Of a stretch of 19,165 bases of DNA, positions 1 through 19,025 are shown in pieces; position 1 is the first letter of the stretch, and each line of letters starts with the position of its first letter. The stretch is from positions 1 through 19,165 of the forward strand of contig NW_013654570.1 of assembly GCF_000499385.1 (NCBI RefSeq). Reading direction: 5' to 3'. The notes beneath the pieces were generated by a model that was not told the origin of the DNA, made no database searches, and saw only the letters and a list, made by a program, of their open reading frames with translations. Origin of the DNA: Eimeria necatrix (Eukaryota > Apicomplexa > Conoidasida > Eucoccidiorida > Eimeriidae). The position numbers and the translations under genes are program-made.

Positions 1-477
1 TGGTCCTTAAATTATACTGGCAGGGCCAACTTATTTCAAGTGTGAGTGGCAGAAAGTAGCTACATGTTCGCGAAGTCGCGGCAGCACGCTAAGCCTGATC
101 ATCCGTATGACGTCCTTGCCTCTTATGATATGCGACATCCTTGGCCCTTTTCGTGCTTTCAAGACTTTCTGAATAACGAATAAAGCAATAGTATGCATTT
201 GGATGACAGCGTCGTGTGCGAAGAGTTCGTTTGTGGTCTAAGCTATGCCTAGAGTTCCTGACTTCGAGGCGTCTCGATGCTGTGATGCATTTCTATTGAA
301 GTAAATGCAAGAGAGTGTCTGGTGCACACAAAAATGACAGCGTCGCAGTTGTGGGTGTACATTCTTTGACACACATTCACGCTCACATCCGACTACATCT
401 CTTTTCTTTTGCCTGAAATATATATTTTGGGCCATGCGCCACTTGTAGAGTGTTGAATGCCGCTTTCTATGCACCAG
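1..477. other. Left end, no confident unit
   Basis: No recognisable gene. Weak candidates on the + strand are AAA at 53 (CAG acceptor, donor GTAGCT with C instead of G) and a 4-base spacing at 210-213 (CAG, then GTGTGC). Neither meets the standard used elsewhere. Confidence 0.5.
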
Positions 478-2733
478 CAAGTATGTCTAGCGGCTGTAGC
501 CCTCGACCCAAACGTTTAACTGAATGAAATCTTGTGTTATTGGTTCGATTTTGCAGACGCGTAGATGTTCGTGTTTGTGTGCGAAACCGCGAAACCGTCA
601 GATGAACAAGAGAACAAGTGCATTGAAGGAAGCCCTTCTTGCTACAGCTGGTTCCTGGAAGCTTTTGCTTCCCGGGACCAGTTCTAGCAAGAAGGGCTTC
701 CCTGAAAGCCGCCTTCAGGTGAAACGGGTCACATTTTTGATAAACGACAGGTAATTATATTTTCTGGCTAGATTATATTTCCATAAATAAGGGAGTATGC
801 TTGGGGCTTCTGCACATTGCACATTCACAGTTTTTTTGATGCATTGAAGAACCTTTATGGGGTGTACCAGCATACTTTTTTTTTCGCATTGTAGGCTGTG
901 ATCTGATTCAAAGGGGGCGATTTACTTCATGCAGCGCCTCCTTCTGTAAACTTTAAGAACAGTTTGGCTGGCGATGTGAATGTTGCGCTTACCAACCAAA
1001 ACAATTGGCTCCTAGTAACTGGATTGAAGTGCCGAACATAAGCCTGTGAGTCTATGCTTTACGTTAAGCACATCTGTAGGCCAAATATAGGCGACCGCTG
1101 GTTGTTCTTCAATAGCTGTGCCACATAGCGTTGATTACTGAAGCGGCATTCACCCGCCTGAGCTATATTATTTTGTGGCAGGGCCTTTTTGAAAATTCAG
1201 CGATCTTTTCTAGGCCCGTGCGCGTGTGGCTTTGAGGCTAGAGCCCACCGTAGTCCCCTACGCGTGCTGAGTATCTGTACGTGGTGTGTGCTTTTTCCAG
1301 GCAGTAAGCTTCGCACTTGGCCATTTTCCGTTGTAGAGTTTAAGAAATGGTCTTCGGCTTCGTTTTTCCAGTTGTGTAAGAGCTCTCCAAAACCATTTAT
1401 TTACACAGTAAAAGCCATACCGCCCTCCTTCTCATAAGTGAGGACAAGAGCTGTTATCTTGTCAGGCGGTGTGTTAAACCGATCAAAATGATTTTTGTAC
1501 TAAACGTGCAAGACCTTGCGTCCAAAAGAAATCATGAACAATGCTGGGAGTAGCAGCCAGTTGCATGCAGTGGCAAAACACATCCCCTTGAACTGGCACG
1601 CCTGTCCTGCGTCGCTTCAAAGCTTAAATTTTTATCGAACAGGTGCCTGCCAAGGCAAACATTGGCATTGGCATCATTTTGCAGCGTGGCAGTGCAAGGT
1701 TTGCATGCATTAGGACGTGAGCGGGCTAGCATAAGAGCAAACATGCCACATGCAACTTGTCGGTTTTATCGGAAGTAGTTGAACAATCCTGGGCACTGAA
1801 ATGCAAGGCTAGCAGTGAGGTGGTAGACTATTGCTGCGTTATGCAGACCCACCGGGTTTTTCCTGCTTGCTTGCAATTGAACATTTTGGAAAAGGTTTCC
1901 AGCTGATACGGTTACTCTCAGTAGTCTCGCTATGTGCGAAGAACATTGTCTGTTGTTTGAATTTACTGATCTGTCATTTACAAGCATGTATGTTTGCTAC
2001 ATGGAACTCGTGGACAAGCGGTAACTGAAATTGAAAGAAGATTCCTAAAGGATCGCATTCGATACTCAAGAACGTGAATGCTTGATACTCAAGAACGTGA
2101 ATGTTTGTGGTGACATCTGGTCAACGATTAAGTACTGCTAATGTGGTTTTTCAAGGTCAAACTTCCATCAGGCGGTATGAGATGCCTGCAAATGGCACTC
2201 ATGAGGCTGAACGTCGTAGCGCTGCGTCTTACGGTGCACTCAGTCAGAGCTAGGAAACGAACAAGAGCGCAACTCGTTAGGCCGCACGAGCAGGCGCGTC
2301 TAAGCAGGTTTTGCCCTACGCTTTAGTTGCAGTGCAAGCGTTTCTTTATTACTCTAAACGGCGTTGACCAAGCGGCCGTAGCTGGCATCGTGCGAGCGCC
2401 CCTCAATTTCACTATTTAAAATTTTTGTGAGCTAGGCTGTAAGCTCAATTTAAAGATTCCATGCAGTTCTGGAGCGATGTATATGAATTCTTGCATGGCG
2501 TTTCGCTAACCAAAAAATATTAGGAATGAGTCTGTGTTGCATGCGCTACGGCGCCTTCGTTTTAGGCAATGTGGCTCAAAGTTGGTTGGGATGCATGACT
2601 GGCGGGAAAGGTGGATGCGTACACCCATTTACCCCTCCTTAGATACAACGGCACTCAAAAACGGTGAAGGTTTTTGGCTAGTTGATGAAAGCAATTTCTG
2701 CCATGACATTCTACGTTTGTTTCGCGCAAGAAA
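478..2733 (+). CDS. Microexon block A: ten candidate single-codon exons
   Basis: Candidate exons by first base, with acceptor and donor: CAA 478 (CAG, GTATGT); GGA 792 (AAG, GTATGC); CCT 1043 (AAG, GTGAGT); GCA 1301 (CAG, GTAAGC, after a run of pyrimidines); GCG 1466 (CAG, GTGTGT); GAC 1714 (TAG, GTGAGC); CAT 1985 (AAG, GTATGT); GCG 2172 (CAG, GTATGA); GCT 2436 (TAG, GTAAGC); AAA 2731 (AAG, GTATGC). Intervals are 314, 251, 258, 165, 248, 271, 187, 264 and 295 bp. Conceptual residues are Q, G, P, A, A, D, H, A, A, K. The AAG-acceptor members (792, 1043, 1985, 2731) are the weakest individually and are supported mainly because they fall where the spacing expects a unit. Confidence 0.6.
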
Positions 2734-5700
2734 GTATGCGACAAACACTGCTGCGTTAGGCAAGAGTAGTTTCAAGGAGCTAAGGATTTCTATGCTAAAG
2801 TAGGAAGAGGACATGGCTTATATAGAATTGGACAGAAAAGAGACACGATAAAAATGAACTGATGGTCCTACCAGAACATTGCATCCCTGGAAGTGTTCCT
2901 TCTGCAGGTGCCTCTGCTTTCGGTGAAAATTCTAACTGATGAATGAAACTGGCAACAATTTAAGAAAAACGCTCTGCTGGCTGTGTTCATATGCAAAAAG
3001 TGATGTTCGTTTTGATGATTTTAACCGAGGCTGGCGGGCGAATCTGTGGATACCACATGAGACTGTGCAATGCGTTAAGTGCTGAAAAACTGCCACGCAA
3101 TAGGCCGTGAGCTCAATCTTGCAGCTTTGAGATTTGACCGTTACCTAAAGCGACCTAGAGAGCTGGCAGAGCAACGAATGATTTACTCAAATGTTTTTGA
3201 GGGCGTATCAGACACGCAGTCACTTAAGAAGACACTGAGAGGCTATCATGCGGGCAATCTGCACTATCTACAAGGCGGTGCGTTTGTTGTCAGAAGAAAG
3301 CAGACAGGTTTCGATGCGTAGGTCTTCATGGTGCTCGGCAGCAGGAGGATCTGAGCAGAGTCATGAACAAATGTTGCTTTTATTACTTATGCCTAGTTTT
3401 TGTTCACTGCCCTTCTTCAGAACCGCATTTGCTGCAGTGCGTCAACAAGACGATTTTCGATGCACTACCTCAGTATGTTAATATCTGCTTGTTTCAGGTT
3501 GTGAGTTTGATGTTTGCTTAACTCATTTTACATTGTGCACGAAGGGGACCAGCAATACTCCTTGTGTGATAGTAGTTAGCAGCTGAGAAGGTACTGCGCG
3601 GCTGCCACAACAGAAAAAAATACGTGAATGACAAGCACTTCAAGAAACTGACAAACTGTGTTTTGCTCTTTGCTCGTGTTCCGAATAATGTTTGGCGGAA
3701 CAATACACGAGTTTTTCACACCGCTTACGGTTGATTAACTTGTACACATCGTCTCAGAGTTGAAGGTTACTCAATCAGGAAGTGAGCTTGGCTCACTGCA
3801 TTTCACGTTTTTACTGCTTTGGCTTTTTGCATATAATATATACGCATAACGTCGGAAAAAAGGGTGAAAAAATGTAGCAAGCTTGACGGCAGTGTGTGGC
3901 ATCTCATACCCATATATCCTCCCCACAGTTACGTTTCGTTGCATACTGCCTTCTAAATTTCGCTAAATTACAACGCATTGCCTGCATGAATGAAAACGGT
4001 ATGCATCTTATTGGGTTTTCTGTGCACTACCTTAGACCGTGCGGTATACTGAACTATAGTACATGCCTCTGCGATTGTCAGCAGACTTGTTACACTTTTG
4101 AAAAAAAGCCACGCATGTAAAACAAAGTGTTGTGATATTGCCATCACAGGGTCATGTTTTGAGTTCACCTGACATGTTACTTCTCATTACAGCTCTTTAG
4201 GTGTAATACGCGGTCATAGGCCTTTAAGTCGGGCACGAGCTGAAGAACTCGAACAACACACACATTCATATGCAGGCTCATGATTTGGCAAATTTCTGCA
4301 ACAACCTATTCAGTCACTGTGAGGCGAAGTGGGTGAGTCAAGAAGAGGGCGACAGCGCGCTTGAAATGTTTGAGTGGAAAATCTGTACAATCGTGGCCCT
4401 CTAGGTATTTGGTCTTCTACTGCTTTAGGTTTTACAACAGCACGAAATCTTTTTGACGACGTCTAGGGGACGCGTCTTTTATGCTTTGTTACGACAGTAC
4501 GTACGCTCATCAGAAAGTGCGCTACCAACAGTTTGCGTAGCGCCGTTGTATAAAAGGTCAAAGCTGCAAATTCACAAGAAGGCGCATTATTGTCTCCTAG
4601 AGATGCGTCGGAACCATGCGACTTAAAATGACCGGTGCATTCCCCACAAAAAGCTCGCAACAGTGACGTTGATCAAGCAGGCAGTAGGCTTGAACCATCA
4701 CTTTGCGCCCATGAAGAATGTATCTGAGTGTGCCAGAAATATAAAACAAGTTTGTATTTGCGTATGAATTTCAACGCTCATGCACACGCTTGCTGAAAGT
4801 AATGCCTGTCAGAAAGTTTCGTCTCGTGTTAGCTGCGCACGTTGTAATGCGCCATAGTGATAATGACTGCCTGCGCGAAAGTCAAATTCCACGTATCTGC
4901 TAGTTTGATTTCTAGCCGCGCACGTTATAACATGACACATAATGACAGCTGCTGGGATATCAATTAATACGAAGGTGCAGGTAATGGGCACAATGGCGCG
5001 GAGGCGGCTGAAATAAGGAAGTAAGTGATTTAACCGCAAGCAAAGCACATTCATCTTTCTGAGGACAGCTGAGAAAGGTTAGATTTCTGTCTTAACGTAT
5101 GCAGGTTTTTAAGACCTTTGAGCCTTGAGAAACTAGAATTATGTTCAAAAATTGGAGGGTCTTTTCGAAGAGGCGGAGGCTGAATTCTTCTAAAAATACA
5201 AGCAAGTATGTTGCAATCGCACTGAAGTTGACAGCTTGTGGGAACACGTTGAACAAAATATGGCAGGGTTCCACATCCTAGTGCTGGAACAGCCATAATG
5301 TGTAAGCTATTGGTGCCACATATAGTATGGAATAAAGGTGCTTCAACGGTGCATCCTGTGCGTGGCAGCTACTGCTGTTTCTTGAGTCGTGCCGACCTCT
5401 GCCTTTTCAAAATTCGCTTAGTCTTTGTTACACGAAACTAAGGTAGCGTATGATTATACAGTTAGGCAACGAAGCGACACGCACCAGGCTGTGAGCTTGA
5501 AGCCTACTCCCATGTACAAGCAGCAATTTACATTTGAGCTCATCCATAGCTTTACTTGGGCCGTCTTCAAGTTGTGTTGAGCTGTGGCACCGACAGATAC
5601 TGCGGGTCACCAACGATGGAACAAAATTGGTGGTGCACTGTGAACAAAATAGCTGGCTTGCAGCTCTTAACTACGCTAAGTCTTCTCAATGTATTTCGTG

Positions 5701-8700
5701 GAATAGGCAAACAGTGGAAAGTAGCATTCGCCAACCTAGATGCAGCAGCGTTTTTTTGAACTAGCTAGTAAGCCAGTGTCCTGTTCAAGTGCTGGTAGCC
5801 TACAAGCGCATTTTTACAAGCGCGTGCTGCTTACAACCGCTGCTAGAAACTCACGGGTTTATCCACTAGCCCTTCAACATCTTCGAAGTTGCACAGAAGA
5901 AAGAATGACGCCTTGTCCAGAATCCGATATGCCGCTCTATAGAAAAGTAGCTCTCCTGTGCACGCCTTGTAATACTGCAACTAATTTTCGGGTGGATAAA
6001 GTGGCTGTGCGGCGCAAAGCAAGTGAGCGATCATTTAGTTGAGTCGTTAGTGACAGGTAGTCTTCCTGTTCTAGGGTCTGCCCTGAATCTTTTATTGATT
6101 TTTCCCGAGAATAGATATTTTGAGGTTTCTTTAAGTATATCGTACTTTGCCACTGTATCAAAAACTTGAAGTGAAGAAAGCGCTACGAAGTACAGTCAGC
6201 AGCTTTTCGAGAGAATGCTGAAACACAGCGTTAAAATGTCATGATATTGCACTTGTGGTAGCGTGGCATGTACATTCACAGATAGATGCAAGCGTATAGG
6301 TTGCGTCTAAGACGTGCAAAAATCGTGATAGCGGCCTGCACTAGCAAGTACGCTGTGAAGATTCAAGCATGCATAGTGTTCCCATGCTAGTTACAGAAAC
6401 GCCGGAAAATTAGTGAAGAACTGAAGAGATGCCTTCGACATTGAGTGAGCAGGTAGCTACTGAAGAATCCCACCGCATATAACCGAAGTCACAGTTTGCA
6501 TTTGCCGACTTCCTGGATTTGTGAGCCGCCTGTTTTTTCTGCACTGTTCAGCAAGTTACGGGTAGGCGTGCCGTTCCTATCGAGTACTGCGCCTCAGGCT
6601 GTACGCTAGATCATGCCTGCGCAAGAAATTGCTGAGAAAACGACTACTGGAGTTATATTATAAAAAACAAAGCTACATTACCCCATTTTTCCTATGCAGG
6701 CTTGCACGAGCACCAGCAAAAGTTTCTTTTAATGTTGCAGCAGCCGCAGCAATTTGGTGTTGCTACTCAAGGGGCCTGGAGCAGCAGCAGGCGGCAGCAA
6801 GTTACCGTGTACGCAGAGCAGACAGCAAGGCTGCTCCTGCTGTTGCACCAGCAATGCTTCTACTTGCTGCTGCTTTTGAGAGCCGGCTTGATACAGGCTC
6901 GCCTAAACGTAAACAAGTCCTTCGTACCTTCATACATTCGCAGAAATTTCAGCATATCAAATGAGCGCAAGTGGCAAAAACGGGCTAACTTAGAAGTTCT
7001 CCAGACAAACAGTTAACTAACCAGAAAGTAAGTAAAATTTCAAGCGTTGACCAATTATCATAATAACCGTAAACGAACATATTGATATAAGCCAACGCGT
7101 AACAGTGGCATGATCCCCTTCACGATGATGTCTGTGAATCACAAGGCCCCCACACATGCACTTTTGCTCCCATTATCACTTCCGTCAACTGGCATGTGCT
7201 GTGGCTGCTATTAAAAATGTGGTTAAAAATGTGGTTTTGTGACCATGGGAAACCAGGGAGTAGGAAAAAAGCAAAGTGGGCTAAGGCAATATGCACGGTT
7301 GCTTCAGGGACGACATAATGACCCCACGCTTCAAAACAGATTGCAAGGATGTAAAATTATATGGTGCATGCACTACAGCAGGAGTTTGCTACTGCATACG
7401 CGCTCAACCATCGCAGTGATTAAATCCAGTTTTTTGATGAAGTGGCGGGCATAAAAAAGCTTACCAACACATGAGCGACAAAACTGCATGGGAATGTTGC
7501 AGGCAGTACGACTGTTTTTTCACACGCACTTAATGATGAAACATAATGATGTAGTGGAATTGCGCTAATTGAAATTTGCAATACATTGTATTCAGGCAAT
7601 TATCAAGATCTCTTTCTGGCTAAACCGCATAAAGTGAGCTTGGTCCAGACGAACTGAAGTGTGCGCCGACTGAGATAGCCATTGATGTGGTAGAGATTTC
7701 GCGAGTCAGCCAGTATGCATTATTCCTTCTACATACAGCGGGAGAAAAAGAAGCTGGAGCACGCAGCAAAACCTACACACCTGCGCGAGCGCTCTTGGCC
7801 TGCGATACGACTAATCCATTTGTCAAAATCCTCCAGCACGGTGGTTAAGGTAGTTTTGGACTTCCGCTACGGACTTAACGCGTTTCAGACGGTACGCGCG
7901 GAGCGGTTCCTACACAAGGTCATGGGCATTAAGAACATTTGTGGCTTTGCCAACGTAGACGTAACGCTTGCATAGAAGGCGCAGAAGCTTTGTAGTAAAA
8001 CACTTTTTAGGAAGCAACATATGCCTGGCCCTTTCTGTAGCCTCTCGCCTTTTCAGGCTTAACGATTCGCGCGTCGATGTCTGCGCCGCATGGATCTGAT
8101 TGACGTGTATGCAGCTTCTATGATTGCAGCCAAACAGAAATCCCACCTTCCAGGCAGTACGACCATTCCTTAAAAGGGCAACAAGGGCCCTGTTGTTGAG
8201 TTGTTTCTAGCGGCAGTGCATTGTCGAAAGTGCAGAAGAAATGAATAAAGCAATGCTGTGGGGAACGAGATGCAGGTTTCTGGTAGGACAGCCACTTAAG
8301 CAACGCTTATAATGCAAATCCTTTTATAATACAAGTAGAATCACCGTTAAATTCATGTATATCTAGTAATTTTCTTACCTCTAATTCTACTTATTCTAAT
8401 AATTCATTACCTTCTACCATATCTATTTTATTTAAAACAGAATTATATTAGGAGCTCCTACTTGTTTTATCCCGTCTGATTTTACAGTCTTCCACATATC
8501 TTCTGGTGCTTTGATATTTGACTCAACTTTTATAAATTTTAGTACCAAATTGCTTCGCCAACAGGAAGTGCGCTTGATATCTGGGTACAGCCGGCAAACT
8601 GTGAAGCCACGCCTGTCCGCTCCTCAATGTAATTTTAAGGTCGTCGGATTTTAATGAGGCGAACTAAAAAAGCTGGCACATGTTTCAAAGATGTCGCAAG

Positions 8701-11700
8701 TAATCAAATGACGTGTTGCTCTCTGATGCATGCTTGCAGACGAGTTACATTGATACAGGCATATTAGAAAGCGACTTCGTGAAAGAAGGCTCTACTGCAC
8801 CATTGTGCCTCAGGAAGTATGCATGATGCGCATGCGCATCTGACACTGCCCCAAGTCTACGTTTACTGTTTGTTCACAGGCCTGGTCATTCAATTAAAGC
8901 GCTTGTCACATAAATGCGGTCCTCACGAACGGGGTGTATTCATAGGTACACTTTGGATTTGCACTGCAACAGGCAGTATGCTAAGTCCTCGACTAAGATC
9001 ATGAACGGTGAATGGAGTGGACTGAGGAGTGTCAAGCTGATCCGCGCCAGTTCGTGGCTAGTTGCTCTGGAAGCAAGTATGATAAGTAACAAGACGAATC
9101 TAGGGGGAGCAAACAGTGTCTGGGCTATAACAAAATGAGAATATGTCGTGTCAGCATGTATGTTCGAGTAGCGACGTGACTTCACTATATGTGTAAAGGC
9201 TTCTGTAGAAACATAACTTTTTTGAATGCGATGCACGTTTACTGGATTCTACATGATATGCAGAAAACGGACAAGTGCCGTCTAGCAGAGGGCATTAGAA
9301 CTCATCTCAAGCGTGTTGGTAATGCTTCTCTTTGGCAACCATGCTTGGAAAGGACGTCGGGAGTTATTATTTGATTCGCAGGTTAGGGTCAGTATATATG
9401 TATCAGTCCTGCTCTCTACATCCTACTTCAAGGAAGTACGCATTACGTTTGCTGTTAATGGCCTGAAGCTAACTTCCGCTTCGTAAACGGCAAAAATCTT
9501 AAAATGCGGAGACATATTCGTGAGTACGAAAAATCGAAGTTTCTTAGCTTGTTGCTAAGTGACGAAGTAGCACACCAACCTTTAGTGATAGCAGTGAGCG
9601 GGCGCGTTTGCTACTGCTTCTGGACTCAGGAAGCAGAGTAGTGTGCCGAATTCGTTTTGTCTAAATATACTTAATCATGCAGTGTGACAAGAGAGCATCG
9701 CCATGCATCAGTGCGTGAGTGAAGCGTAAAACAGAAAAATGTCGGTTTACAGTGGCAGAATTGAGCAACTAGAAATTGGTCCAATCGCCATAGTATTAAG
9801 GTTCCTGCTGCACAAAATGAAATAAGTCAAATGTTGCATGAATTTAACTCTATCAGAATAGCTGGATTTCAACATTACGATAAGTGGTAGCTGCTCCAAT
9901 GAAACAAGAGAAAAATAGCCTCTCCTTTGCATGCATATGGCCCCAAATTCCACATATATTGCCTACTCTCATCAAGGTCACGTAAGTGCAACCAAATAAG
10001 AGAGAGGAAGAACAATAATAGAATGATGGGGCCTGAGATGCGACGGAGAGAGACGGGGCCCTCTTGCCGATGGACTGAAAAGCAGACAAGGAGACGTTAT
10101 ATCATGTTGTTTCCTTCCAAAACCAAGCATGAGAGAGCTGGGGTCGAGACGCGGAACGAACACACGTGCATTCGACACACGCTGTACAATCTACGGCCCC
10201 ACAGTCCTAGTATACTCATTCATTTGGCTTATTCCAAACATGATATTGTGTGGAGAAGACTACAGTGATTGCCGCAGCAGCCATACGCATGCGCATATGG
10301 ATCTGCTGCCCAATCATCTACCTCAACACACTCGCCACCCCAATACAAAGCGGCTGCTTGCTCTACATAGTGTTCAATGCTGTCCCATCAGCAACACCTA
10401 TTTCTAAGCGCCGAGATAGATCTTCTCTCCCGGTAACTTACGAAACCCACAGTGCAGCCGAAGGACAGCATCGCTGACAACGGAAGCAGCAAACAACCTC
10501 CAACCAGCACGGAAACACCTTGCCAGTCTGTCCCATTGTCCCTTCGTTCAAAGTGGGAATAGTGACGCAAGAGCAAAACCTACACAAAACGTCCTGTCGT
10601 GCCCTTTGCTGCTTTCCCACATCATTTCGTCTACAAAACGCACCAGTGCGTGCTTCAGTTAGTACGTTTTACTTGTGTACAATGCAGATTCAGTGAGTCA
10701 GAATCTCATTTGTTATCGTGCACGTACTTTTGCGCTAAAGTATCTATTGTTCAGTAATAGCTATGTTGAACTAGTGCGCTGCCGTAAGCAATAACTTCGT
10801 TTTGGAAGCGCGGATATGTGCGGCATGCTTGAAGCCGACTTACATTTCGAGACAAGCCCACTGGCACGCGATAGGAAGTACGCTTATTGAGAGAACAAAC
10901 ATGAAAAACTGTTGAAAGTCATTTACTAAATTTTAAGCCTATCATGCATGCAGCAGACCTGCAGAATGTCAGGCCTGTGGACAGTTTGTAGGCAGTGGCT
11001 TTGGAATGTTCCGCCGGCACAGTTTTGCTTCCAGCTGCTTCGGCTGATTTCCATTGCTTAGGAGGGGAGAGAAGAAAACGTTAAGGGAAAACCGTCGATA
11101 AAAGTGCAATAAGACGCTGCCTATACAGTGTCCCGTATCTCAGAGAGTATGGCTTTTGTGGGCAAAGCGAGGGATCATGGTTCTCAGGAGAAATGCCGAT
11201 TACACAAATATTTTTTGACACAATCGCATCGCTTGTGTGGCAGCAACTTTTGCCTTGGAATTTCTATGGCGAGGGTGCATCGCTTGTAAAGCGCTAATTG
11301 GAGCTCCCTATACATCTGTTTGGGTACCAGAGAGGAAAAACCTTTGAAGCAGAAAATGCTCCACGCTATTAATATGAGTTTGCTGTGGCAGTTCGGCCTT
11401 ATTACGTCTCATTTGTGAATCGGAGGTCTGAGTAGACGACGGATAAAACGAATCGTTATGAAACTGCACGCCGCAGGAATGCACCACTTTCCTGAACCAG
11501 GCAGTATGTTTGTTGTCAGGAGCACAGGGGTGCATGACTTCTAGAACAAATCAGTGCTTCGCTTAAATAAGGCCCCCACTAAGCGTATACCACACACAAG
11601 GAGACATGGCTTGAGCAGAAGCTGATGCTCCGGTGACGTGAATGCTGAGAAGATATTCAACAGGAAGTTTCTTCTCATATGTTCCCTCTATACTTAAAGC

Positions 11701-14700
11701 AACAAACGGTAACCGGCCTATGCTTGTTTAGGTGGCAAATGGTTGCGAAACGCGACTTAGGGTGGAGCTTCGCTGCTTCGTACTAGTCTGTACGTAAACA
11801 TTGCACAGTAAGGAATTAAGCAATAATCAGAACTTACCCAGTAAATCTTTGGCGATGATCAACGCGGCATTTTGGTAGGTCAAAGCTTCTGGCTTGCGCC
11901 AGCGTCAGCGCTGCGTTCGATGAATTTTGCAAAGCACACGCTGAAAGACAGCTGCGCCTATCAGGAAGTACGTCTTTTGTGTGGACGTCATACATAAATG
12001 CATTAACTGCGGAAAGAAATCGCTGCTTAGAAAACGGAACGGTTTCTCGTCAAAGACGTCTTTTTGAACTACTTTGCCGCTGCACATTGAGACTTTGGAA
12101 TCTGATGGGCTTAGTCGGGCTGTGGAATATTCACGTACATGTAATAATTCTGCCCGGCAGGCGGTGAGCTTGATCTCTTAAGCAGCACCCGGGCAGTCTC
12201 AGAAATATCGGCTCCTGTGCGTTTCGAGTGTATGGCAACTTTTACGCACTTGTATAATAGCTTTCTTGTCGACCATACGCCAATGGAGTACCCTCAGCCG
12301 CTATCAGAGAAGCATCCTGGTGGAGTCATTTACTGCATGTACAAATGTTACGAGGCTGCTGACAATGCTTTGTGCGTATCCGCAAAGACTGAGCATGTTC
12401 TTAACACTATTCTAAGAACTTAAAATAATTTATTTTCCCGCAATGAGCTCATCATGAGTTCTTTCAGACATCTGAGAATATAAACAGTTACTTGTAGTGG
12501 CTAATAGACTTAGCAATGCACGTTATCATGCAGTGAATTTGGTTTTTTTTTAGCATTACGCTGCCAATTGCCTGAAACTGAAAAAGTGCCGTTTTATGAA
12601 TAAATCTGTGCAGCTCTCGGAGCAGAACGCATTGAATGACAGAATGACCGGGCCATGCAACAGGCAGTGCGGATTCCAATCGTGTCCACTACATTCGAAT
12701 ACTGATAAAACACAACCGCTCCGACTTCTGGCCGGAATACCTGGAAAATTTTTGTCGCACACGCACGCCCTAGTAAAACTTTGTGGAGGGAATTTTGCTC
12801 TTAATGTTATCAGGCAATTCACTTGGAGGAGCTGCATGTTCGGAAATATTTTGCGTGTTCTGTTAAAGTGGTAATTGCCTACATAGCCGTGCTGATATCT
12901 TTATAGCATGAAGGTTTTGACGCAACAGGCAGTGCGCTTCTTTTTTAGGCAGTTTTCTTTAGTACTGTGTCTTGATCCATCGAAAAAAGCTGCAGTAAAT
13001 GAATGCCACAGCATGACACGGTCAAATGCCACCAGACTGAAAATAATAGACAATTTTTGGGAAGGCGTTTTTGCAGTGTGTTCAGTGTTGGAATACACAA
13101 TTGCAGCTGGCATACACTTTGCCGGCAAAATGGGGCTGGTTAACAAAAATGGCGCGCAGTAGGCTGCTAAAGGAGCGTCTTGTGCCAGGCGGTACGTCTT
13201 TCATGCGTTAAGAAGTGAAACCAAATGTCGCAGAAGAAGAAAACGTGGCATTAACCTTACATTTGTGCGTGCAGCATTGTCTAGGTCGTGTGCATTGCCC
13301 GCAAAGACTCAGTTACCCTTGGGTTGCACTTTCCAGCTGCGTGTGTTTTGTAAGATTGCATGAGAAACGTCAGATAAGCTTTTGTCAAGTGGTCGAACCA
13401 AAGTTTTGCCTGATGAATTAGAACTCCAAAACGTTTCATATGCGTGTGTCCTCGATGGATCAGGCTGTTCGTTAGATATGAGTGCAGCACAAACCCTGGC
13501 GTAGCACGAAGTGATTTAGTGGTATTGTTCATTCTCGACACTGCAATTAGCACGTGACCAATCACATTCGAAGAAAACTGAAAATTTCATGTGTTTTCCC
13601 TACAGACATTGGCGTTGGTCAATGAATGAAATGCTTGCCATGGATGGGTGAATATTAGTTCACAATTTGGCATGCATTGCGACAAATGAGGACCATATTT
13701 GCTCCAGGTTGTACGAAGGACCCTTATTGCTGCTAAAACGCACAATCCCTTATGAGTTAGTGTTTGCTCAGGAAATATGCTTGATGAAATAAGGCATGCT
13801 TTTGCTATTTTCTGAGGATCATTATTGAGCGTTATTTGAGTGCCATCCTTGGTTTCGACCCTGTGAGTACATGCCCATCCAGTCTTGCCCTATAGAAAAA
13901 TTCTGTTTTATTTGTAAAATAAAACAGAATTTTTCATGTAGATGCCGCAACAAAAGTAAACGTGGTTTTGTTGCGGGGTTCACCAGGTAGTATGTCTTGT
14001 ATAAAGGCTTGTGCCAGCAGTGCTGAGTTACAAAAACAGTGATAAATTCTGTCCTCCTGGTGATGCGTGCAATAGTGCCGGAGTCTTCCAGTCATGAATG
14101 GGTGGGAACTATATTGTGTCCAATAAGTGTACCTGTGCGCCGATGCACGCAATTTTCTACGGCTGCTCGAGTGGAATGACATTTGTTCGCTGTTACAATG
14201 ATGATGCCAGAGCCACAAACCGACCGTTGGTGGAGGAGTGGGGATCACGCGGATAATAAGTGGTGATCACCTCAGGCAGTAAGCTGAATCCTAAAATCAA
14301 GCGTAATGATCAGGTCACGCAAAAGAATCTAACGCATTAGAAATGTGCTTTTTACCTCTCAGGCAAGGAGAACTACTGAAATGTGCTGAGCAACCCCGGA
14401 ACATGAAATATCAATTTTTCACATCCCCCTGCAGTGCCAAGGCACGTCTTTCTTTTAGTGATTAGTCGCTGTACATCAGGCAGTATGTCTTTTCCTAAAT
14501 TGCTGAGTGCACACAGTTGAAGGAGAACGCGAACTGGAAAATGCGATTCGGGCGGCGTTGACACGTGACGTGTGTTGTCGTGCAAAGTGCCACTGTGATC
14601 TGCGAGACAATCAAATATGACTTTTATCATAACTCCGACATTACCAAACTATACGCATTATGCTTGTTATATTTGGTGTCTAACACAGAGCCATTAGGTG

Positions 14701-17700
14701 ATGAGCTGGAGCAGCTGCTTCTACGTTTACTTGGGACTGTAATGCTTTAGTCAGTACGCTATTAGTATTCGATTGTAAAAGCATCATAGATACAAGTGGA
14801 GATTGGAGAAGGCGTGCACATTGAGTAGTGCACTTGCTGGTTAAATCTTGAAAGCCCCTGAAAAACAATTGTATCGATAGATCAGCGATAGATCAGATGC
14901 ATGCCACAAGGTGCTGCCGCAGGAAACACTTTCTGGCCAGGATGTGCGCCTTTATAAAAATGGTGAAGACAGTAGTGTGAAGAGCTTTACGATGACATCA
15001 GATGACTTTAACATGCTCAGAGCCGTAGCCAGGACGAAAAGGCGCTTTTACAAGTGCTGACAAACCCTTGCCGAACTTGCATTTCCTTATGATGCGTCCC
15101 CTCTCTGGTAACCCTATTTTTCGCTGCTGCGGTTGGTTCGAGCTAAAATATGAACGCCGACGTAGAAAAAGCACTCCAATGTTTCGTTTGTAATATTTGT
15201 TTATGCGGCAGGCAGTAAGATTGGCGTGCTGAACATCATCAGGAAGACGTTTCGGATTATATTAAGTTTGCCCAGCCGGTAAATAGCAGCAATATATTTG
15301 GATGCTCACTATGAAACAGTTTTTGCATGAAGGGGCCCTCAATTTTGAGTTTCTGACGGTGGTGCCATGCTCGACGGAATGTGAATATGCAACAGTGGCA
15401 CTGCAGTTGTGCTTTGTCGGACAGCTGTTTGCAATCTTCCTCGTAAAACAAAATTGAGCGCTCTGAGTTACACATCAACAGTTTTTTTCCTGTAAAATGA
15501 CAAGGCCCTTTCAGCAAACAATGCAACTAGACGATGTAAAAGCATTGTGGTTTTTTTCACGAAAATACGTTTACATTGTCTAGCTGCATTGTCTGCTGGA
15601 AACGCCTGTCTATGGAGGCGCGCGCATGTGAAAAATTGATTTGGCAGTTTGTCAAAAGAAACAATATACCGTTGTGGGATGTAACTGCAAGGCATTAGGT
15701 AGTACGCCTGACTGGCTGTGTAAACGCAGAATGAGTGTGCAGTGTAACCCCTGAACGCTTGCTCGGCGCAGTTTATGTTCTTGCTTGTTTTGTTTGAATT
15801 GTATAAAGTTTCTAAGGGAGCTCTGTGAGCTATTTTGCAAAAGTAGTCAAATAGCGTGTTCATGATGGGCCCTGTTCGCGCAGCAATGCATGCTTTCCCG
15901 AGAAACTGGAAATTAAAGAGACTCAACACAGATGGCGGCTTTTCCAGTCTGTGCACCATGAATTATCACTTCTTGTTGAGATTCCAACAAGTGATGCATC
16001 CCAAAAGTCCTCTTTTCGACGAGAAGAGTGCTAGGAAGCGCGCATTTGGGGGTGACAACATGTTTGTGTCTGATATGCTGCACGTGATATGCATTTCCTA
16101 CTTCGTAGAAAAGCAAAATAAGCAACACAAATCGGCTATGCAAGCAAAGGCCGGTGCGCTGCGAAGCACCAGCGGTTTAATTCGTGCTATGGCGCTAGAA
16201 CGCTTTTTGACTCTGTTTGCCTCTGCTACCTTAAGCATTTCAATAGACAAAAATCTGCTCCGGCACGCATACCGGCCAGCAACAACAAGAGAACGACAGC
16301 AGCAACATTCGCGTTTTCAAAAGCAGGCTAAAGCCACGAACGAAAAACAACTGTCTGTGCAAGAAAGCACGCTGATCGGAGATTGCTCTGTTAAGATAAT
16401 AATGCTTGTAGCAGTGGGACTAACGTCAATACATTGGGTGTGCAGCAGCTGGAACTGTATTTTTTTGTGGCTGAGAAACGAAAGGAAAGCCGATCGAGTT
16501 TTGTCTTGTCGCTGCTTGTCCAAAGTAATTTTTTGCACAGACAATGCTGCACTGTGTCAAAAACAAAATATGCATGCCATGGGCTTCGCCACGTAATTAA
16601 TAGGGTGTGTACTAGCAGGTGCGCACAGCTCTTGGGGTAGTGACCATTGGAGTTCTAAAGTATAAATTCAACTACTTGGAGAGCTTCCTACCAGCCGCCA
16701 TTGCTCTTGAGAGGGAGCCGCGAGGTGGAACAAACTAATGGCCTTACCATTAGGGTGATGTTTAAAAATTTTTTTCTTGATTGCAGCATTCTCGCCGAAA
16801 GTGCGATTGCGACGCTATGGCTGCCCATGGGCTGCTGAGCCGAAACACAGCAGTCTTACTCAGGAGGTGCGCTGCCTTTCAAAATTACGTCAAGAGCAGT
16901 TTTCGGCTTATCACTGACAGTCCATGTTGCATGACTAAAGCCAAGAAAGAAGTGGCCCTCGAGAAGCACAACTCGGCAATTTGCAACGCGGTTATGCATG
17001 CGAACGTGCTTAGCACTTTACTATTATTGATCTAGATTGCCCAATTTCTTTGCTAAATGTAGCCAAGACAGCTTCCCAACCTAATAACGAAGCGTTGCGC
17101 CAGCCAACGTAGCTGTGCCTTTCGTACCGTAGGCAGTGCGTTTTGTACACGAAGATTATTTATCTATAAATGCACGTTCACCCGTAAAGAAACCCTTTAG
17201 AATGTTTAGATTGTAGAGGCGTTTTGCAGGATCAACGATATAATACATCAGGCAGTACGAACGTTCCCCAGGCGCCACTGCTAAAGTTATACTATGCGTA
17301 ACGCTAGCACTCTATATATACTTTCCAAACCTGTTGAACGTGCATGGGGGGCAGTTCGCAAAGCGTTGCTGCAGTACGAGTGGCGTTCGTGCATAAAACA
17401 GGCATGAACGTTGCTCGTGAGGTGAGCATGCGAGAAGCACACAGCTCTGCTGAAAATTCCTTTCAAGAAGGAGGATCTCCAAAGGCTCTATACAGTGCTA
17501 GATGGAAACGCCAGCGTCTTAGTCGAAGAAGGTTGGAGCATTGTAGGTGAGATTAAGGATGTGTAACAGTCTAATAGAGCCGCGGGTTTTTTTACACCAG
17601 GCAGTGCGTCACGTTTCTAGAAACAGACAGTGAAGACGCTTGAGCAGAAGTGTATGCATATCAACTCATTCTGAGGTTGTGTAGAGATTTTCACAAAGTG

Positions 17701-19025
17701 CAGCTGGTTAAACAAAGAGGGTCACTCATCGGAAACTGATATCTGGAGCAGCAGACTCCGCTGCAACGCTCACCAGAGTGCAAGATAATTTGTTAAAACA
17801 CCTTCCACGTTATTGCATGTGTGCATCTTTTGTTCAAATTTGGAATATCAGGCTTCATGCGTGCTGTTAGTAGCAAAATGCAGAAAACAAATTTGTGACT
17901 TGCACTGTGCCACTCTAGGGCTCCATCCACCAGTTATAACTTTTGATGCCATGGTAGAGTTCTCCACCGTTTGCGTGGTCTCATTCGTTAATGCCGATGC
18001 CTTGACAGAATTACTGTGCGACTGACTTGAGCTCTGGGCAATATTTGTCAGGTCTCCAATGGCTTCTAAGCGCCAGCGCCTGGTGATAGTAGACTGTGGA
18101 GACATTCCACCCCTCCCACCCACGTGCTAAACACAAAAAACCACCATCACAGAAAAACCGCGATGCGTTCAACTACAGAGAATTGTACAATCTAACGTTC
18201 AGGCCGTCGATACCGCAACGGTTGCACACGGCATGCCGGTGACTAATTCACAAAAGCAGAACTCCGGGTCTTCACACTTTATCTGTAACTACCGTTTTCA
18301 TTCCATAAAAATGCCCCTTGACTGCACCACGCTTGCACAGGGCTACAGAAAGGCCTTTGTTATTGCATTTGATGGCACAAAAGAATCCCGTATCCATGCT
18401 GACACATTGTAATGTGTCACCTGTACACGGCGCTCGTTCAGCGGGTTGAATAAACGCCTGCTGTACTAGGATGTTGAATAATTGGTTGGGCACCAGTTGC
18501 TTTAGGTCACCTGTGCATCAAGTTTGCAGTTTGCAGCATTTGTGGAAGGCACGTGATCGCCCCATAATGCGTGGGCCGGCAAACTTCAAGGATTGATTTT
18601 GGGACGTTTTGCTGTTACGGGCGTGAAATTCGAAGTGCCTGGTCACACACCGGTATGTCGTGAGAGGCAACCAAGTTGATGATTTGCTTGCAACGTGCTT
18701 CTGCGAGGTGGTGCATGTGCCAGGAAGTAAGCCTGACTGGCCATCCACTCAAACTCTATTCCGGCTATATGCCAAAAGAGAAATATGCGCAGACGTCTCT
18801 GCTGTCCAGCGAAAATAATTTCTACATGCCCTGCATCTACGTTGGTTCGATAAACAGAGCAACGATTCAGTTTGGTTAGAAGTCTGCGTTTGAAATTGGC
18901 AAGGCCACACTTTACAGACTCTCGCTGACTGCCAACGGCACGCAGCATGCTTGGCATATTGCAATGCTTAGATCTGAGAACTAGGTGCGTCTGCTCACAA
19001 CTAAATGCTGCAGACACCAAAGAAG
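478..19025 (+). CDS. Candidate gene built of serial single-codon (3-nt) exons; internal part only
   Basis: I do not recognise the product. About 62 elements of the form acceptor AG, three bases, donor GTRNGY lie in order on this strand, and the listed blocks give each one. Acceptors are mostly CAG, then TAG, with about ten AAG. Donors are GTA or GTG, any base, G, then mostly C or T. Spacing is about 160-430 bp, fitting short introns. Read as codons the triplets hold no stop: GCA about 14 times, GAA 8, GCG 5, GCT 4, CAA 4. Phase 2 is closed by GCT-AAA junctions (2436/2731 and 6598/7025). Phase 1 is closed by TTA-GAA (10659/10875) and by GTT-GTA (13708/13987). Only phase 0 stays open. The conceptual product is Ala/Glu/Gln/Lys rich and probably helical. 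No start codon exon, stop exon or poly(A) signal was identified, so both gene ends lie outside. Alternatives are recursive splice sites or an unknown directional RNA signal. Confidence 0.6.
628..701. ncRNA. Long near-perfect hairpin, miRNA-precursor-like
   Basis: A 17-bp perfect arm pair (628-644 with 685-701) continues inward from 646-655 with 674-683 and 657-662 with 667-672. The only interruptions are one C/C and one T/C mismatch and two G-U wobbles, closing on a TTTT loop at 663-666. The total is about 33 paired positions in 74 bases. It lies in the putative intron between the units at 478 and 792. Toxoplasma is known to have an Argonaute and miRNA-like RNAs, so an intronic small-RNA precursor is possible; a short terminal-inverted-repeat relic is the alternative. 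Strand is unknown because the structure folds either way. Confidence 0.55.
2061..2103. repeat. Tandem duplication, 23-bp period
   Basis: A 20-base string (2061-2080) is repeated exactly at 2084-2103. It lies within the putative intron 1988-2171 and looks like a recent local duplication. Confidence 0.85.
3104..5490 (+). CDS. Microexon block B: eleven or twelve candidate single-codon exons
   Basis: Candidate exons: GCC 3104 (TAG, GTGAGC); GCG 3275 (AAG, GTGCGT); GTT 3498 (CAG, GTGAGT); GAA 3779 (CAG, GTGAGC); ACC 4036 (TAG, GTGCGG); TGG 4330 (AAG, GTGAGT); TAC 4498 (CAG, GTACGC) or AAA 4514 (CAG, GTGCGC); GCA 4681 (CAG, GTAGGC); GAA 5018 (AAG, GTAAGT); CAA 5203 (AAG, GTATGT); GCT 5488 (CAG, GTGAGC). 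The pair at 4498 and 4514 is too close for an intron. Either they are alternative exons, or one is chance, or a single 19-base exon 4498-4516 uses the first acceptor and second donor. TGG at 4330 has a poor upstream pyrimidine tract and is the least certain. Conceptual residues are A, A, V, E, T, W, Y or K, A, E, Q, A. Confidence 0.58.
4832..4953. repeat. Degenerate direct repeat
   Basis: Positions 4832-4870 and 4915-4953 share the core GCGCACGTT plus a related tail ending in ATAATGAC and a G/C-rich triplet. There are several substitutions and a small gap between copies. No function is evident; it lies in the putative intron 4684-5017. Confidence 0.5.
5765..8156 (+). CDS. Microexon block C: ten candidate single-codon exons
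   Basis: Candidate exons: CTA 5765 (TAG, GTAAGC, preceded by seven T); CAA 6020 (AAG, GTGAGC); CAA 6345 (TAG, GTACGC); GCT 6598 (CAG, GTACGC); AAA 7025 (CAG, GTAAGT); GGA 7257 (CAG, GTAGGA); GCA 7503 (CAG, GTACGA); CCA 7710 (CAG, GTATGC); ACG 7889 (CAG, GTACGC); GCA 8154 (CAG, GTACGA). Intervals are 255, 325, 253, 427, 232, 246, 207, 179 and 265 bp. Conceptual residues are L, Q, Q, A, K, G, A, P, T, A. The long 427-bp interval contains the CAG/CTG-rich patch. Confidence 0.62.
6735..6875. repeat. CAG/CTG triplet-rich patch
   Basis: Interrupted CAG/GCA triplets at 6735-6750 and 6780-6825 are followed by GCTGCT and TGCTGC runs to 6873, so the halves can partly fold back. Both + frames are open here (Gln/Leu-rich and Ala-rich), but this follows from triplet composition and does not establish a gene. 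Such triplet runs are typical of Eimeria-type coccidian genomes. It lies in the putative intron 6601-7024. Confidence 0.6.
7211..7234. repeat. 12-bp tandem duplication
   Basis: TTAAAAATGTGG occurs twice head to tail (7211-7222 and 7223-7234) in a putative intron, just upstream of the GGA unit at 7257. Confidence 0.8.
8310..8540 (-). pseudogene. tufA: AT-rich insert with a broken tufA (EF-Tu) fragment, probably organellar DNA in the nucleus
   Basis: This block is sharply AT-rich compared with its flanks. On the minus strand, 8435-8310 reads as the end of the EF-Tu G domain. It begins with the GTPase G4 signature NKID, followed by an ELLE...VELEVR helix and a GD...IIKG segment, then meets a TAA at the likely breakpoint. 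The frame just upstream, about 8467-8438, gives KQVGAPNIIL, the EF-Tu strand before NKxD. The two frames are joined by a 1-base deletion near 8433-8437, and an in-frame TAA sits at 8393-8391. The part from about 8540 to 8470 is open but does not look like EF-Tu, so the insert may be a mosaic or carry an internal deletion. tufA is on coccidian apicoplast genomes, so a nuclear apicoplast insertion is the favoured origin; mitochondrial or bacterial origin is not excluded. Confidence 0.75.
8565..9714 (+). CDS. Microexon block D: six candidate single-codon exons
   Basis: Candidate exons: GAA 8565 (CAG, GTGCGC); GAA 8814 (CAG, GTATGC); GCA 8973 (CAG, GTATGC); CAT 9155 (CAG, GTATGT); GAA 9433 (AAG, GTACGC); TGC 9712 (CAG, GTGAGT). 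Intervals are 249, 159, 182, 278 and 279 bp. The interval before 8565 is 411 bp because the tufA-like insert lies in it. Conceptual residues are E, E, A, H, E, C. This is the end of the first unbroken run of units. Confidence 0.63.
8825..8840. repeat. 16-bp perfect palindrome
   Basis: GATGCGCATGCGCATC is its own reverse complement. It begins three bases after the donor hexamer of the GAA unit at 8814 and contains a GCATGC core of the kind recognised by ApiAP2 factors. Confidence 0.6.
9721..10655. other. Unit-free gap with distinct composition
   Basis: No strict unit occurs between 9712 and 10659. The only candidate is a 5-base spacing at 9977-9981 (AAG acceptor, GTAAGT donor). From about 9990 to 10620 the sequence changes character: purine-rich (GAGAGAG-type) near 10000-10140, then C-rich to 10620. 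Overlapping + frames of 75 to 113 codons are open, one with a hydrophobic stretch, but I recognise none of them. It could be an inserted element or an ordinary longer intron. Confidence 0.5.
10659..12163 (+). CDS. Microexon block E: seven candidate single-codon exons
   Basis: Candidate exons: TTA 10659 (CAG, GTACGT); GAA 10875 (TAG, GTACGC); AGA 11144 (CAG, GTATGG); GCA 11501 (CAG, GTATGT); TCT 11787 (TAG, GTACGT); GAA 11965 (CAG, GTACGT); GCG 12161 (CAG, GTGAGC). Intervals are 216, 269, 357, 286, 178 and 196 bp. Conceptual residues are L, E, R, A, S, E, A. The join TTA-GAA places TAG in phase 1, and TCT-GAA places TGA in phase 2, so only phase 0 is open here. Confidence 0.62.
12167..12660. 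other. Double-length interval without a unit
   Basis: The 503-bp interval is about twice the local average, so one unit may be missing or diverged. I searched around 12320-12500 and found no acceptable AG-NNN-GT site. A GTGCGT at 12372 lacks a nearby YAG acceptor. Confidence 0.4.
12664..15214 (+). CDS. Microexon block F: eleven candidate single-codon exons
   Basis: Candidate exons: GCA 12664 (CAG, GTGCGG); GCA 12929 (CAG, GTGCGC); GCG 13189 (CAG, GTACGT); GCT 13464 (CAG, GTTCGT); GTT 13708 (CAG, GTACGA); GTA 13987 (CAG, GTATGT); GCA 14276 (CAG, GTAAGC); GCA 14480 (CAG, GTATGT); TCA 14751 (TAG, GTACGC); GAT 14941 (CAG, GTGCGC); GCA 15212 (CAG, GTAAGA). Intervals are 265, 260, 275, 244, 279, 289, 204, 271, 190 and 271 bp, the most even stretch in the window. 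GCT at 13464 has a GTT donor and is accepted because it divides a 519-bp gap evenly. Conceptual residues are A, A, A, A, V, V, A, A, S, D, A. Confidence 0.65.
13895..13935. repeat. Perfect 19-bp hairpin with 3-base loop
   Basis: Arms 13895-13913 and 13917-13935 are exact reverse complements around the loop GTA, and are AT-rich. The structure lies in the putative intron 13711-13986, ending about 50 bp before its acceptor. A perfect inverted repeat suggests a recent origin or strong structural constraint. Confidence 0.85.
14875..14896. repeat. 11-bp tandem duplication
   Basis: CGATAGATCAG occurs twice head to tail (14875-14885 and 14886-14896) in the putative intron before the GAT unit at 14941. 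Confidence 0.8.
15509..15602. ncRNA. Imperfect long hairpin, pre-miRNA-like
   Basis: The arm 15509-15546 pairs with 15564-15602. Pairing is interrupted at spaced single positions: one bulged G (15598), A/C mismatches at 15517/15593 and 15526/15584, a G-U wobble at 15533/15577, and mismatches near 15541 and 15543. About 33 bases pair, and a T-rich loop of about 17 bases closes it. Evenly spaced single mismatches in a 94-base hairpin are typical of miRNA precursors and unlike a fresh inverted repeat. It lies in the 487-bp putative intron 15215-15698. Confidence 0.55.
15699..17603 (+). CDS. Microexon block G: six candidate single-codon exons around a gap
   Basis: Candidate exons: GTA 15699 (TAG, GTACGC); CAG 16616 (TAG, GTGCGC); GAG 16864 (CAG, GTGCGC); GCA 17133 (TAG, GTGCGT); GCA 17252 (CAG, GTACGA); GCA 17601 (CAG, GTGCGT, after a seven-T run). 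The first interval is 917 bp and holds a weaker candidate TCT at 15948 (CAG acceptor after a pyrimidine tract, donor GTGCAC lacking the usual G). The 119-bp interval 17133-17252 is unusually short, so one of these two may be optional. Conceptual residues are V, Q, E, A, A, A. Confidence 0.55.
15708..16612. other. Unit-poor gap
   Basis: It contains the long open frame at 15862-16596 and only one near-match unit (TCT at 15948). The sequence otherwise resembles the surrounding putative introns. Confidence 0.45.
15862..16596 (+). other. Long open reading frame of unknown status
   Basis: From the first ATG at 15862 the frame is open for 244 codons to TAA at 16594; the previous in-frame stop is at 15844. 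I recognise no domain. A Gln/Arg/Lys-rich middle is followed by a hydrophobic stretch, including IIMLVAVGL, near codon 175. A frame this long is unlikely by chance in about 19 kb, and it fills most of the 917-bp gap between units at 15699 and 16616. It could be a retained coding exon, a gene nested in an intron, or chance. A minus-strand frame of 163 codons (15959-15468) overlaps its start, which weakens the case. Confidence 0.25.
17610..18720. other. Gap with possible decayed units
   Basis: There is no strict unit here. Weak look-alikes are GCT at 17852 (CAG acceptor but TC where GT is expected), GCC at 18203 (CAG acceptor, GTCGAT) and GAT at 18467 (TAG acceptor, GTTGAA). Intervals would be 251, 351, 264 and 257 bp, matching the array, but these sites were found by relaxing the pattern. 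From about 17900 to 18200 the sequence is C-rich, and a 91-codon minus frame (18123-17848) is open; I do not recognise it. Confidence 0.35.
18724..18726 (+). CDS. Single-codon exon candidate GAA
   Basis: CAG acceptor at 18721-18723, GAA, then donor GTAAGC. It follows an 1123-bp gap without a strong unit. The first bases of the following intron share an 11-base string with the intron after 15701. Confidence 0.55.
19014..19025 (+). CDS. Candidate 12-nt exon (four codons)
   Basis: A CAG acceptor ends at 19013 and a strong consensus donor, AAG then GTGAGA, begins at 19026. Between them are four codons, ACA CCA AAG AAG (T, P, K, K), open in phase 0. It lies 290 bp after the GAA unit at 18724, an ordinary interval for this array. 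It suggests that some exons are larger than three bases but still multiples of three. A TAG directly followed by GTGCGT at 18982 could compete as a splice site. Confidence 0.4.

Follow-up and report, generated by a model that had tools for sequence, protein, structure and literature searches.

In the window, by which we mean the whole 19,165-nt stretch of DNA analysed here, an acceptor AG, exactly three bases and a donor GT recur in series along the plus strand. We consider it likely that this is a spliceosomal gene whose exons are each exactly one codon long and which is probably spliced stepwise. What is directly established is the presence of AG-3nt-GT units on one strand and at an exact spacing, the lack of stop triplets among them, and the conservation of units between diverged copies of another array. 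The array and its predicted exons, with their splice-site matrix scores, are as follows.

478..18726, +, array of about 60 predicted single-codon exons with GT-AG introns between them, median spacing 265 bp
478..480, +, predicted exon CAA, score 16; same in C961
792..794, +, predicted exon GGA, score 16; C961 has a GGA unit at a similar distance in diverged sequence
1043..1045, +, predicted exon CCT, score 14
1301..1303, +, predicted exon GCA, score 17
1466..1468, +, predicted exon GCG, score 14
1714..1716, +, predicted exon GAC, score 15
1985..1987, +, predicted exon CAT, score 17
2094..2096, +, doubtful exon AAC, score 10; within a 23-bp tandem repeat
2172..2174, +, predicted exon GCG, score 10
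2436..2438, +, predicted exon GCT, score 18
2731..2733, +, predicted exon AAA, score 13
3104..3106, +, predicted exon GCC, score 17
3275..3277, +, predicted exon GCG, score 16
3498..3500, +, predicted exon GTT, score 20
3779..3781, +, predicted exon GAA, score 18
4036..4038, +, predicted exon ACC, score 11
4498..4500, +, predicted exon TAC, alternative to 4514, score 15
4514..4516, +, predicted exon AAA, alternative to 4498, score 17
4681..4683, +, predicted exon GCA, score 14
5018..5020, +, predicted exon GAA, score 10
5203..5205, +, predicted exon CAA (weak), score 9
5488..5490, +, predicted exon GCT, score 18
5765..5767, +, predicted exon CTA, score 15
6020, +, weaker site, a residue in the earlier peptide, score 7
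6345..6347, +, predicted exon CAA, score 16
6598..6600, +, predicted exon GCT, score 16
7025..7027, +, predicted exon AAA, score 14
7257..7259, +, possible exon GGA, exact consensus, low matrix score 8
7503..7505, +, predicted exon GCA, score 15
7710..7712, +, predicted exon CCA, score 17
7889..7891, +, predicted exon ACG, score 14
8154..8156, +, predicted exon GCA, score 14
8565..8567, +, predicted exon GAA, score 17
8814..8816, +, predicted exon GAA, score 17
8973..8975, +, predicted exon GCA, score 17
9155..9157, +, predicted exon CAT, score 14
9433..9435, +, predicted exon GAA, score 12
9712..9714, +, predicted exon TGC, score 18
10659..10661, +, predicted exon TTA, score 18
10875..10877, +, predicted exon GAA, score 15
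11144..11146, +, predicted exon AGA, score 13
11501..11503, +, predicted exon GCA, score 19
11787..11789, +, predicted exon TCT, score 12
11965..11967, +, predicted exon GAA, score 20
12161..12163, +, predicted exon GCG, score 18
12664..12666, +, predicted exon GCA, score 13
12929..12931, +, predicted exon GCA, score 19
13189..13191, +, predicted exon GCG, score 19
13285..13287, +, predicted exon GTC, score 12
13464..13466, +, predicted exon GCT, score 14
13708..13710, +, predicted exon GTT, score 12
13987..13989, +, predicted exon GTA, score 17
14276..14278, +, predicted exon GCA, score 16
14480..14482, +, predicted exon GCA, score 16
14751..14753, +, predicted exon TCA, score 18
14941..14943, +, predicted exon GAT, score 14
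15212..15214, +, predicted exon GCA, score 16
15699..15701, +, predicted exon GTA, score 16
15948..15950, +, predicted exon TCT (weak), score 10
16616..16618, +, predicted exon CAG, score 15
16864..16866, +, predicted exon GAG, score 13
17133..17135, +, predicted exon GCA, score 17
17252..17254, +, predicted exon GCA, score 12
17601..17603, +, predicted exon GCA, score 17
18724..18726, +, predicted exon GAA, last strong unit before the contig end, score 18

Controls on the array and related arrays in the assembly

The exact pattern YAG-NNN-GTRNGH occurs 52 times on the plus strand of the window and twice on the minus strand; the preliminary description, counting by eye, had arrived at about 50. 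Dinucleotide-preserving shuffles of the window (n = 200) gave a mean of 6.1 matches on both strands together and a maximum of 12, and none reached the observed 54. At spacing 4 the same pattern occurs 10 times on both strands against 6.3 expected, and on the plus strand each of the spacings 0-15 other than 3 gives 1-7 matches. With H tightened to Y (YAG-N-GTRNGY) and the number of intervening bases varied from 0 to 120, 44 matches fall at spacing 3 on the plus strand, and the remaining spacings yield 0-9 each. This single peak indicates one exon length only, 3 nt, so that other exon lengths were rejected and the earlier claim that the three-base spacing is specific holds over the whole range. 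Neither other spacings, nor the minus strand, nor shuffled sequence, which that description had proposed as controls, matched the density at spacing 3.

We also trained a splice-site position matrix on sites from the window and from contigs C3 and C5. Above a threshold of 9 bits it finds 63 sites in the window at spacing 3, compared with 5, 2, 1, 6, 1, 1, 7 and 2 at spacings 0, 1, 2, 4, 5, 6, 7 and 8, and zero-length ratchets were rejected on this count (5 against 63). Since the units at 4498 (TAC) and 4514 (AAA) lie 13 nt apart, both cannot be exons, and the unit at 2094 (AAC) sits within a 23-bp tandem repeat; an honest estimate of the real units is about 60, the number first proposed, and the observation is stronger than initially described. 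The peptide given earlier for 4514-9435 was reproduced, except that two of its residues (6020 and 7257) stand on weaker sites with scores of 7 and 8.

The GT-AG motifs of the window are arranged in one orientation, on the plus strand, and it is very unlikely that the array arose by chance. Mimicry of splice sites by base composition, a DNA repeat or a protein-binding motif seems to us extremely improbable. An extended consensus does surround the units, and a CAG-containing repeat in another contig (C100, locus L009) does make AG..GT matches, at other spacings; but composition is excluded by the shuffles and by the controls for spacing and strand, and a binding motif would neither avoid stops nor keep exactly three bases free. 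As for repeats, a tandem-repeat scan of the window returned three trivial rows, and comparison of the window with itself at E 1e-3 found no direct repeats, dispersed or otherwise, and three hairpins only.

Eight other contigs carry spacing-3 arrays, one of them weakly (C1140, 9 units against 0-6 at other spacings). Units above 9 bits at spacing 3 number 48 in C961, 31 in C102, 28 in C3, 22 in C5, 20 in C6 and 13 in C2, and 11 in the 4 kb of C303. C961, which lay outside the matrix training, has its 48 against 1-9 at other spacings within 0-8, while the corresponding figures for C6 (20 against 0-5) and C102 (31 against 0-3) come from relatives of training contigs. The arrays fall into four families: C3/C102 (about 93% identical); C5/C303/C6 (C5/C303 89% identical; C5/C6 about 72-73%, with 72% over about 10 kb); C2/C1140 (78% over 3 kb, among the matches listed); and C961 with the window. 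C2 and C1140 share few aligned units, some of them lost, and this pair was left out of the copy tests below.

Sampling 16 loci (L005-L020, some half masked) regardless of the pattern gave a single peak at spacing 3, a weak one, in L020, the C1140 locus. Three of the four loci chosen after a whole-assembly count of the pattern (L001-L004) peak, as does the later-chosen L024. At L014, the matches at other spacings are unrelated sites.

C961 is joined to the window by one close match:

2..647, +, window segment 95% identical to C961:17697-18342, sequence alignment of about 650 bp

This match breaks at an inverted repeat in the window (620-709) and stops 447 bp short of the end of C961. Over the remaining 447 bp the alignment to the window is loose (317 of 400 aligned bases match, with 199 gap columns); we therefore dropped C961 as a plain overlapping neighbour and consider that it may be a sister copy. 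Two readings of C961 thus stand: a sister copy, or a neighbour lying upstream whose end has diverged or was misassembled, in which case the gene would extend over about 37 kb and comprise about 110 codons. Under both, the 48 units of C961 add to the evidence. The inverted repeat has 43-nt arms that are 84% complementary and 4 nt apart, and hairpin-like inverted repeats also occur in the window at 13895-13935 and 15503-15607.

Several repeats were seen in passing. Window 9966-10603 is 73% similar to C737:2349-2997, and may be an intronic repeat; the 3.6 kb of C737 examined hold no single-codon array. In C2 (L003), two segments about 1.45 kb apart are 88% identical (among the matches listed) and contain one AG-3nt-GT unit each, with differing codons. 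In C5 (L002 5926-6015) a mobile or satellite-like insert of about 90 bp, which neither the C303 nor the C6 copy has, recurs across dozens of contigs.

The window makes up the whole of contig C929, in a 44.0-Mb assembly of 1,148 contigs. Other contigs encode runs of alanine, glutamine and serine and contain TTTAGGG arrays, and an open reading frame on C800 is 55% identical, over 64% of the query, to an Eimeria maxima protein; the window presumably comes from the same Eimeria-like organism. YAG-NNN-GTRNGH occurs 16,109 times in the whole assembly, against 9,607 at spacing 4 and 10,530 at spacing 6. The difference, about 5,600-6,500 sites, should be read as an upper bound, as CAG repeats next to ordinary donors probably contribute to it, and for this reason we rejected the whole-assembly counts as direct proof; a reversed-pattern control (6,800 in the assembly) was dropped as background. 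There are 214 TAA/TGA triplets where the reversed control has 231, and 652 TAY/TGY triplets where it has 560, a weak fit to stop avoidance. The window itself has almost no CAG repeats and a CpG observed/expected ratio of 0.85; among 14 CAG-rich loci this ratio is 0.40-0.54 in ten and 0.72-0.83 in four. Arrays of this type are found where repeats are few, in the sort of DNA that gene finders class as gene-poor.

Probable coding content of the triplets and conservation of the units

No stop occurs among 203 triplets from seven contigs, or among 245 when the near-copies C102 and C303 are included; within the set of 203, C5/C6 and C2/C1140 are relatives, so that not all triplets are independent. 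Permuting bases within codon positions predicts a mean of 5.5 stops in 203 (P = 0.0013 for none), and reading the same codon strings in frames 1 and 2 brings up 12 and 14 stops. In the window alone, none of the 63 triplets is a stop, and the shifted frames have 2 and 6. The background rate of stops is 4.8% of triplets after other YAG sites and 5.7% before other GTRNGY sites. We conclude that the triplets are likely to be coding.

The order of residues has a weakly significant helix-like periodicity. The joined peptide of C961 (from residue 18) and the window gives a hydrophobic peak at 100-110 degrees per residue, which is the value of a helix, with P of 0.02-0.05 without the first 17 residues, a cut chosen after looking, and of 0.055-0.17 for all residues; the window peptide alone gives 0.059-0.105. 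Searching the joined peptide against about 5.8 billion proteins returned 230 candidates (lengths 63-199 only), none of which matched at E up to 10. Pfam and PDB gave no relative of the predicted peptides (best hits DUF2616 at E 0.087, and PDB entries at E 1.1 and 1.2), and Rfam gave nothing useful. The third base of the triplets, directly before the donor, is rarely G (14 of 135 in the window, C3, C5, C2 and C1140 arrays). G is usual before a GT donor, unlike in these triplets, and the scarcity may reflect a splicing constraint.

Absence of stops also bears on the proposal of ratchet (recursive) splice points or decoy splice sites, units that would subdivide very long non-coding transcripts and whose three bases, whether they remain or are removed, would encode nothing. 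The near-juxtaposition of AG and GT, as at ratchet points, the lack of a protein relative and the rapid change of codon bases described below speak for it. A non-coding triplet, however, has no reason to avoid stops, and zero-length AG|GT sites are not enriched, so that we judge this proposal unlikely.

Diverged copies retain the units. From C5 to C6, 19/21 spacing-3 units are kept, whereas AG..GT pairs with some other spacing are kept in 11/37 cases (Fisher P 7e-6); in the opposite direction 18/20 units and 12/39 chance pairs are kept. From C5 to C303 all 12 units are kept against 4/8 control pairs, which are too few to weigh. Because the introns of C5 and C6 also align, at about 70%, the two count only as diverged copies, and their peptides were dropped as independent evidence.

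Codon bases are no more alike than the introns (identity 0.65 versus 0.73 in C5/C6, 0.86 versus 0.89 in C5/C303), and C5/C303 amino acid identity is 7/12 against 0.78 for pseudo-codons. The codons that changed between C5 and C6 have higher BLOSUM scores than pseudo-codons drawn from the introns of this pair (P 0.010); in C5/C303 the changes are not unusually conservative (P 0.35). Pooling with C3/C102 gave P 0.016; this excluded one shifted C5/C6 pair, entered a shared change a single time, and set four C3/C102 changes, of which one falls in a unit that is broken in C102, against the C5/C303 control. A separate test for conservative change, based on counts of changed bases and including the shifted C5/C6 pair, gave P 0.043. 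Synonymous changes are not in excess (P 0.29). With codon bases changing as fast as introns and no synonymous excess, the protein would evolve fast or be little constrained.

The C3/C102 pair contains several units that are intact in only one of the two copies. Such losses between copies about 93% identical, and the resemblance of these regions to gene-poor DNA, would suit decaying pseudogene copies, in which the layout was once coding and the copies are no longer expressed. We regard this as improbable, given that C5/C6 keep their units at 72% identity and that stops are absent from the triplets of all copies; decay of this kind itself grants that single-codon-exon genes exist or existed. Stop-free triplets, conserved units and peaks in contigs outside the training set together favour a gene of consecutive single-codon exons, as the preliminary description had proposed.

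Introns and the proposed mode of splicing

The 176 introns measured across the arrays start at 75 nt and have a median length of 268 nt (two impossible spans of 13 and 18 nt were left out, and spans over missed units inflate the upper end); no length class modulo 3 is favoured, and they look ordinary. A mobile-intron (introner-type) origin was rejected, as the window introns are not copies of one another. No convincing branch-point motif was found in array introns, and no convincing start or stop exon in C5/C6 (scanned) or C3/C102 (by eye). Directly upstream of the first shared unit of C3/C102, an ATG-started open frame of about 45 codons was seen by eye to run into a strong donor; it has no indels between the copies, and its phase would bring a stop among the following codons. 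TTTAGGG arrays precede the C3 (L001) and C102 (L034) single-codon arrays by a few hundred bases, and this TTTAGGG stretch of 500 bp has relatives in dozens of contigs.

From the DNA alone we infer that the array is transcribed, spliced, read in phase 0 and translated, and that it would still be spliced codon by codon today. The window would be part of a protein-coding Eimeria gene with about 60 GT-AG introns, its codons joined in phase 0 by the ordinary spliceosome. Splicing factors cannot easily be bound at once to an acceptor and a donor 3 nt apart. U2AF and U1 would hardly be able to occupy an acceptor and the next donor together, which makes exon definition unlikely and intron definition the simplest model. 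Introns would then be removed stepwise, one at a time, each step lengthening the upstream exon by one codon and handing on the following donor, in a process akin to recursive splicing with a step of one codon instead of zero length. The unit losses in C3/C102 suggest a reason for keeping exactly three bases: skipping or losing a unit would cost one residue and never the frame. The predicted product is an alanine- and glutamate-rich, helical, coiled-coil-like protein.

If this is true, the spliceosome can build a protein out of dozens of one-codon exons in succession, something that exon-definition models do not permit, and what looks like gene desert holds genes missed by gene finders, six-frame searches and standard read aligners. 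The three-base step would also make the minimum exon, the order of splicing and the protection of frame directly testable. More speculatively, and on balance we doubt it, Eimeria and perhaps other coccidia might harbour in "gene-poor", repeat-poor DNA a hidden class of genes with thousands of one-codon exons across the genome, in which codon-by-codon ratchet splicing, with skipping of exons that are each one in-frame codon, would generate vast numbers of protein variants from a single locus.

Comparison with known systems

Our literature searches, in open-licence papers, found no gene of serial single-codon exons. Schistosome micro-exon genes likewise have serial short exons that keep the frame, with many lengths in multiples of three and longer exons flanking them; in the window, by contrast, 3 nt alone is enriched among 0-120 nt. 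Its introns differ from introner-type mobile introns in not being copies of one another. Genes with isolated microexons, such as homothorax and APC11, have a single tiny exon among otherwise ordinary ones, whereas every detected exon over 18 kb of the window is one codon. The 3-bp micro-exon of Drosophila homothorax (PMC7392893) and the single-nucleotide exon of Arabidopsis APC11 (PMC4674806) share with the array a spliceosomal exon of at most one codon between GT-AG introns.

Within the coccidia, gene-poor, CpG-rich and stop-rich subtelomeric regions are described in E. tenella (PMC9131526), which the window resembles in its high CpG and few repeats of CAG. Toxoplasma has subtelomeric-like (TAS-like) regions of about 30 kb, almost without annotated genes (PMC4008256). 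Both sets of regions likewise have few annotated genes and high CpG or many stops, and the Toxoplasma copies, at about 70% alike, recall the diverged arrays; hidden tiny-exon genes do not figure in the portions of these two accounts drawn on here (PMC9131526, PMC4008256). Exons of E. tenella average 350 nt (PMC8515493), so that single-codon arrays are not the normal gene layout of the genus.

At the ratchet points of recursive splicing, acceptor and donor are juxtaposed with nothing between them (PMC8605326). The array resembles them in that acceptor and donor nearly touch and splicing is probably stepwise, and differs from them in that spacing 0 is not enriched and three bases, one predicted codon, stand between acceptor and donor.
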